Shown: piece by piece, positions 13,657-14,049 of the stretch | Layout: the number at the start of each line of letters is the position of its first letter | Position numbering within the stretch: position 1 is the stretch's first letter | Position numbers and translations under genes: made by a program | DNA from: a virus | DNA: 21,020 nt | Strand: one strand, 5' to 3' | Virus record (IMG/VR): IMGVR_UViG_3300027852_000191 | Coordinates: 1 to 21,020 of that record | Notes under the pieces: generated by a model | Seen by the model: the letters and a program-made list of their open reading frames with translations, nothing else | Database searches by the model: none | Told to the model about the DNA's origin: nothing

Positions 13657-14049
13657 CTACTTATCCTCCTCTCCGGCAATAAACCCACTACCACCAAATC
13701 TAACAGCTTTAAAATACTTTAGCACTCGTCTGTGTCTCAACCAGGACAGTACCAAATTCCCTGTCTGTTCGTCAACCAGTGTAAGTGCATTATCCCATAA
13801 CCTTCTGTCCTCCCTGAATTGCTCTTCTGGTGTGGCTACTACCGAGTAGCCAAAATCATGAATCACTCAGGCTGGTTTGATATTCAAAAACCACACTGTA
13901 TCAGGAACAAGCCTGTCCCCGAAATTACCCGGACCTCAGCCACCACGATTGACTACCCTCCTCAATTCGTCAAGAGTGAGATTGTAAAATCCAGAAGGCG
14001 CACTTAGTTTGTACTTTCTTGCTATTTTAAAAGCCACTGCAAGTTTCAT
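13657..14049 (-). CDS. Candidate selenoprotein: PLA2-like phage protein with two in-frame TGA codons
   Basis: 130 codons from ATG 14049 to TAG. The start is firm: it overlaps the M15 peptidase TGA (ATGA) and follows GAGGAG by 7 nt. The frame continues across TGA at codon 38 (13936-13938) and codon 61 (13867-13869). Around them it reads GG-TGA-GPGNFGDRLVPD and KPA-TGA-VIHDFGY, then a tail LRHRRVLKYFKAVRFGGSGF. GPG...HDxxY resembles the Ca-loop and His-Asp dyad (His64-Asp65) of secreted phospholipase A2, where cysteines sit at both TGA positions and form a disulfide. From memory, related phage proteins read GCGP and ACxxHD. No other Cys codon is present. SECIS-like hairpins follow each TGA. Selenocysteine is favoured; a decayed gene is the alternative. 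Membrane attack at lysis or entry is possible. Confidence 0.8.
13833..13852 (-). promoter_or_regulatory. SECIS-like hairpin after second TGA
   Basis: Minus-strand TGGCTACT (13852-13845) pairs perfectly with AGTAGCCA (13840-13833), 8 bp, around loop CGGU. Again exactly 22 nt separate the TGA (13869-13867) from the loop. The GGU in the loop matches the G-U bases that E. coli SelB contacts in fdhF, by recall. Confidence 0.65.
13901..13922 (-). promoter_or_regulatory. SECIS-like hairpin after first TGA
   Basis: Minus-strand 13922-13914 pairs with 13909-13901 (9 bp including two G-U pairs) around loop GGCU at 13913-13910. Exactly 22 nt separate the TGA (13938-13936) from the loop. A GG-containing apical loop at this distance fits the bacterial SECIS consensus as I recall it. 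Confidence 0.6.

Follow-up and report, generated by a model that had tools for sequence, protein, structure and literature searches.

A phage phospholipase A2-like gene with two in-frame UGA codons, each followed by a SECIS-like hairpin: a probable selenoprotein

The sequence examined here (the window) is the full 21,020-base virus record IMGVR_UViG_3300027852_000191. Its minus strand carries a phospholipase A2 (PLA2)-like gene (13657..14049), which comprises 130 codons when TGA is read through; in a check of the reading frame, two TGAs were the sole in-frame interruptions. The gene begins with an ATG (14049..14047) preceded by AGGAG, ends with a TAG (13659..13657) and, at its start, shares an ATGA overlap with the TGA that stops the gene upstream. 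The first in-frame UGA (13936..13938, minus strand) corresponds to residue 38 and the second (13867..13869, minus strand) to residue 61, and each is followed on the same strand by a SECIS-like hairpin (13901..13922 and 13833..13852, respectively). The codons for His64-Asp65 (13855..13860, minus strand) lie between the second UGA and its hairpin.

The upstream gene, also on the minus strand, codes for an M15-family peptidase or endolysin (14046..14453) and is itself preceded by a gene for a predicted secreted protein (14455..14952, minus strand), the product of which gave no match in a Pfam search. In the related viral contig L162, comparison by eye shows a sequence resembling this product (LRWDANTEADL...) to be encoded directly upstream of a double-UGA PLA2-like gene. 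Two genes upstream of the latter, L162 also codes for a caspase-domain protein (L162:879-1733; PF00656, E 1.4e-24), and a similar gene is found in another relative, L023 (9923-10765, minus strand). The PLA2-like gene of a further relative, L182, adjoins an NlpC/P60 gene, and short genes near the PLA2-like genes resemble holins, as judged by eye only. These peptidase and holin-like neighbors in several lineages hint at a possible membrane- or envelope-directed role of the PLA2-like product in lysis. Elsewhere in the window, the plus strand carries a Family A DNA polymerase gene (6716..10216), which includes an N-terminal uracil-DNA-glycosylase-like domain and an intein that harbors an HNH endonuclease.

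Vibrio phage 1.097.O encodes a "phospholipase A2 domain protein" that has Cys at both TGA positions; the window protein, with each TGA taken as a residue, shares 34% identity with it. The profile of the family matches the Streptomyces PLA2 structure 1faz with an E-value of 3.2e-8. When the window protein alone is compared with PF09056, it scores 14.5 bits (E 0.057) and misses the curated Pfam cut-off of 29.4, and we therefore refer to it as PLA2-like rather than as a member of the Pfam family; of the 39 family members, 10 reach E 0.01 or better against PF09056. The structural model of the window protein (pLDDT 85.5) retrieves PLA2s as its four best Foldseek matches, and in a structure comparison it scores highest with 4aup (Z 9.6) and 1faz (Z 7.6), followed by the next unrelated structure at 5.4. 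Residues H64-D65 and D81 are invariant across the 39 aligned family members. His64-Asp65 is aligned to the HD of 1faz and, by homology, would represent the catalytic His and the Ca-binding Asp of PLA2. On the basis of sequence and model, the gene is predicted to encode a PLA2-type enzyme. A different family, DUF1353 (PF07087), is matched by 18 of the 39 members at E 0.01 or better, which suggests that DUF1353 may be related to PLA2.

The relatives of the window protein were collected by a translated search of viral contigs in which the Cys positions were left open, yielding 38 sequences. In the alignment, both window UGAs fall exactly on the two conserved Cys columns of the family, the first within a G-C-G motif and the second within A-C-x-I-H-D. 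Most of the relatives contain Cys at both sites, three contain Ala-Ala and one Val-Ala. The two sites are thus kept or lost together, the observed states being CC, UU, UC or AA and, once, VA (where U denotes UGA). They are separated by 23 residues, or by 24 in two lineages. The corresponding pair in 1faz, Cys45-Cys61, presumably forms a disulfide and would be the counterpart of the pair replaced by UGA. In the relatives, the conserved Cys pair therefore probably forms a structural disulfide.

Using DNA patterns together with the open-Cys profile, we located four further viral lineages with UGA at the matching site or sites, three at both sites and one at the first only. The double-UGA forms are L023/L111 (one gene in two contigs), L161/L162 (near-identical) and L189/L191 (one gene), and in the single-UGA form, L182, only site 1 is UGA, site 2 being Cys. 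The latter (L182:8001-8507) also has a Cys-rich C-terminal tail that is absent from its close Cys relative, L184. No single-UGA form carrying the common IHDWMY motif was found in pattern searches, and those for UGA at site 2 with IHDW returned known loci only, the remaining matches being due to chance. In a family tree computed without the UGA/Cys columns, all of the UGA forms and the Cys forms L183 and L184 constitute one group with moderate support (SH-aLRT 66-68, bootstrap 81-83), within which L182 and L184 are firmly grouped (99.9/100). This mixture of UGA and Cys forms indicates that the two have been interchanged more than once or that UGA has been lost again, and UGA has persisted over deep divergence.

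The hairpins of the window are as the earlier note had described them. The first (13922..13901) consists of a 9-bp stem, which includes some G-U pairs, and a GGCU loop (13913..13910), and the second (13852..13833) of a perfect stem of eight Watson-Crick pairs and a CGGU loop (13844..13841); the claimed distance of 22 nt between UGA and loop is exact at both sites. Both hairpins are present in the minimum-free-energy fold of their own stretch and of the joint 121-nt stretch. Taken alone, they have energies of -10.7 and -10.4 kcal/mol, and their 48-nt stretches reach -13.4 and -11.6 kcal/mol. The published model of the bacterial SECIS element (bSECIS) specifies a loop of 3-9 nt with a G in the first two positions, an upper stem of 4-16 bp, a distance of 16-37 nt from the UGA and a minimum free energy of -7.5 kcal/mol or lower (PMC13188914). 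Both window hairpins conform to this model, including its energy threshold, in support of the SECIS reading proposed in the note. Loop, stem, distance and loop G agree with the model at all nine UGAs of the five lineages, each of which is followed 21-27 nt downstream by a SECIS-type hairpin with an N(0-1)G[G/U] loop, such that no TGA relative lacks the stem. The model further considers conservation of the UGA form in other genomes, which is observed here in the four further lineages. Some hairpins of L161, L162 and L189 are weaker when taken alone (-5.1 to -6.5 kcal/mol) and fall short of -7.5 kcal/mol, the threshold being reached by their 48-nt stretches; the L161/L162 hairpin after the second UGA competes with an alternative fold (-6.5 versus -8.2).

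Compared with dinucleotide shuffles, the window folds are unremarkable on their own (z about -1.0 to -1.5), and a test based on synonymous recoding was therefore used. For each site, 5,000 recodings weighted by the codon use of the record were scored for the best hairpin that lies 15-30 nt after the UGA and has a G among its first two loop nucleotides. At each of the nine UGA sites the hairpin is stronger than expected, with p values for the first and second sites of 0.026 and 0.0006 in the window, 0.005 and 0.072 in L023, 0.006 and 0.036 in L162, and 0.029 and 0.001 in L189, and of 0.046 for the single UGA of L182; the combined value (Fisher, 4e-10) is derived from sites that are not fully independent, since hairpin 1 is homologous between lineages. 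Such hairpins are also scarce in the window itself: among the 650 TGA trinucleotides on both strands and in all frames, seven are followed by one at -9 kcal/mol or better. In only three of the seven does the frame stay open for at least 20 codons on each side; two of them are the UGAs of the PLA2-like gene.

Most relatives that have Cys instead of UGA lack these hairpins. At -5 kcal/mol or better, a cut-off chosen after the data had been seen, a hairpin is present at 9/9 UGA sites versus 3/79 Cys/Ala sites (Fisher 4e-10), and at -7.5 kcal/mol the numbers are 7/9 and 3/79 (6e-7). In L182, a hairpin follows the UGA and is absent after the protein's own Cys. L183 and L184 contain Cys and share with L182 the identical peptide GPGKFGDWLVPDT, yet lack a qualifying stem: the Gly codon of this peptide is GGG, with the stem, in L182, and GGA or GGT, without it, in the two Cys forms. 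Strong SECIS-like hairpins (-9 to -10 kcal/mol, p 0.015-0.048) do occur after the first Cys codon in L132, L152 and L154, and these may have arisen by chance or be left over from a former UGA. The compensatory changes that the note had proposed to look for among relatives are few. One stem pair after the first UGA alternates between A-U, U-A and U-G, and one after the second is A-U in L161 and G-C in L023, as read from the alignment; a formal covariation test on hairpin 1 was not significant, because its stem is nearly invariant.

Taken together, we consider it very likely that the gene encodes a phage PLA2-type selenoprotein, in which SelB and tRNA-Sec of the host decode both UGAs as selenocysteine (Sec), with a probable structural diselenide. 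According to this proposal, the selenocysteyl-tRNA of the host, carried by host SelB, would be delivered to both in-frame UGAs, with SelB binding each of the two independent bacterial-type SECIS hairpins. The two Sec residues would then occupy the place of the conserved Cys pair next to the catalytic His-Asp. Because the replaced pair should be a structural disulfide by homology with the Streptomyces PLA2, the product would most likely hold a diselenide in its stead. On general chemical grounds, such a bridge should withstand a reducing cytoplasm or anaerobic conditions better than a disulfide.

The searched phage records, possibly fragmentary, yielded no SelA, SelB or tRNA-Sec; a phage-borne tRNA-Sec, SelA or SelB was thus rejected, and host machinery is inferred. 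The identity of the host was approached in several ways. A pattern search for the double-UGA gene across bacterial and archaeal genomes (84,980 species) found no copy, its 18 matches including none that encodes a homologue. The family profile gave no match in 395 genomes of one phylum, in a search that lacked a positive control. Phage tblastn searches with the polymerase, a long window protein, the terminase and the portal returned only distant matches from mixed hosts.

The absence of Sec machinery from the phage records would also be expected if the UGAs were decoded without selenium, with a suppressor tRNA or a reassigned one inserting Cys (or Trp or Gly), and the occurrence of Cys in most relatives and of Ala in some implies that Cys or a small residue is tolerable at these sites. 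We nevertheless regard this explanation as very unlikely. In the same phages, UGA is the stop codon of other genes, among them the M15 gene just upstream, and often overlaps the next ATG. Trp and Gly are absent at either site among the relatives examined, and no suppressor tRNA was found in the window or in four related loci. Moreover, such decoding gives no reason to expect SECIS hairpins after every UGA and none after Cys codons. The related proposal of a genome-wide reassignment of UGA was rejected, as other genes in these phages end in UGA.

Alternatively, the stable hairpins after the UGAs might act in regulated translation attenuation or limited readthrough that fixes the ratio of short to long product, with Sec being incidental; a lysis-like cluster of genes is a setting in which timing is important. 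This appears extremely unlikely: products cut short at 37 or 60 residues would be devoid of the catalytic His-Asp, UGAs are found on the Cys columns only, and in the single-UGA form just one Cys site is UGA, the other being Cys. A decaying gene or a sequencing error, in which the TGAs of a short gene with two stop codons, known in its exact sequence from a single contig, would be nonsense mutations, has a negligible probability, being already contradicted by the relatives: TGA recurs at these positions in four further lineages, three of which are represented by two contigs each. There is no other in-frame stop, two random stops would both land on the conserved Cys columns with a probability of about 1e-4, and the closest pair, L161 versus L162, has dN 0.016 and dS 0.32 over the whole gene and, beyond the second UGA, dN 0.011 and dS 0.41, for a dN/dS of about 0.03. 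The low dN/dS, together with the use of UGA as an ordinary stop elsewhere, thus excludes decay, sequencing error and global reassignment or renders them unlikely, and the earlier preference for decoding over decay is supported.

If the gene indeed encodes a selenoprotein, selenium would be built into a phage enzyme, and infection would therefore depend on the selenium status and Sec machinery of the host. The Sec pair seems to serve structure and not catalysis, and is thereby relevant to the question of why selenium is used in the first place: under conditions that reduce disulfides, a diselenide may keep a small enzyme intact. Other such genes have probably been missed, because gene callers that treat UGA as a stop split them. 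Our search, which covered open-access journal papers, found no report of a phage-encoded selenoprotein. We think it likely that the genes described here represent the first such family, a non-redox hydrolase with two SECIS-directed Sec residues as a structural diselenide, whose full-length form would depend on host selenium.

Like the bacterial selenoproteins with bSECIS elements, e.g., the E. coli formate dehydrogenases (PMC13188914), the window gene has in-frame UGA in place of the Cys of its homologues and one hairpin per UGA, with the hairpin 16-37 nt downstream, a G in the first two loop positions and loops of the G[G/U] type. Unlike them, it resides in a phage genome, codes for a PLA2-type hydrolase rather than an oxidoreductase, and its Sec pair would replace an apparent structural disulfide; the main text of that review mentions neither phage, virus nor phospholipase. 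In SelL, two Sec residues are likewise expected to form a diselenide, described in a citing source (PMC2397514) as lying in a redox motif, whereas in the window gene and its relatives 23 residues (24 in two lineages) separate the two, which by homology would be structural. The Basilisk-like Bacillus phages offer another connection between phages and selenocysteine, a tRNA-Sec gene reported as the first in phages to the knowledge of its authors; the passages concerned name no phage selenoprotein (PMC6145125). The closest counterparts of the enzyme itself are the Streptomyces violaceoruber PLA2 (1faz; PF09056) and the Vibrio phage 1.097.O protein, which have the same fold, HD motif and position of the Cys pair, with Cys where the window protein would have Sec. 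The Streptomyces PLA2 contains two disulfides (PMC9728194), whereas the window protein can form one bridge only.
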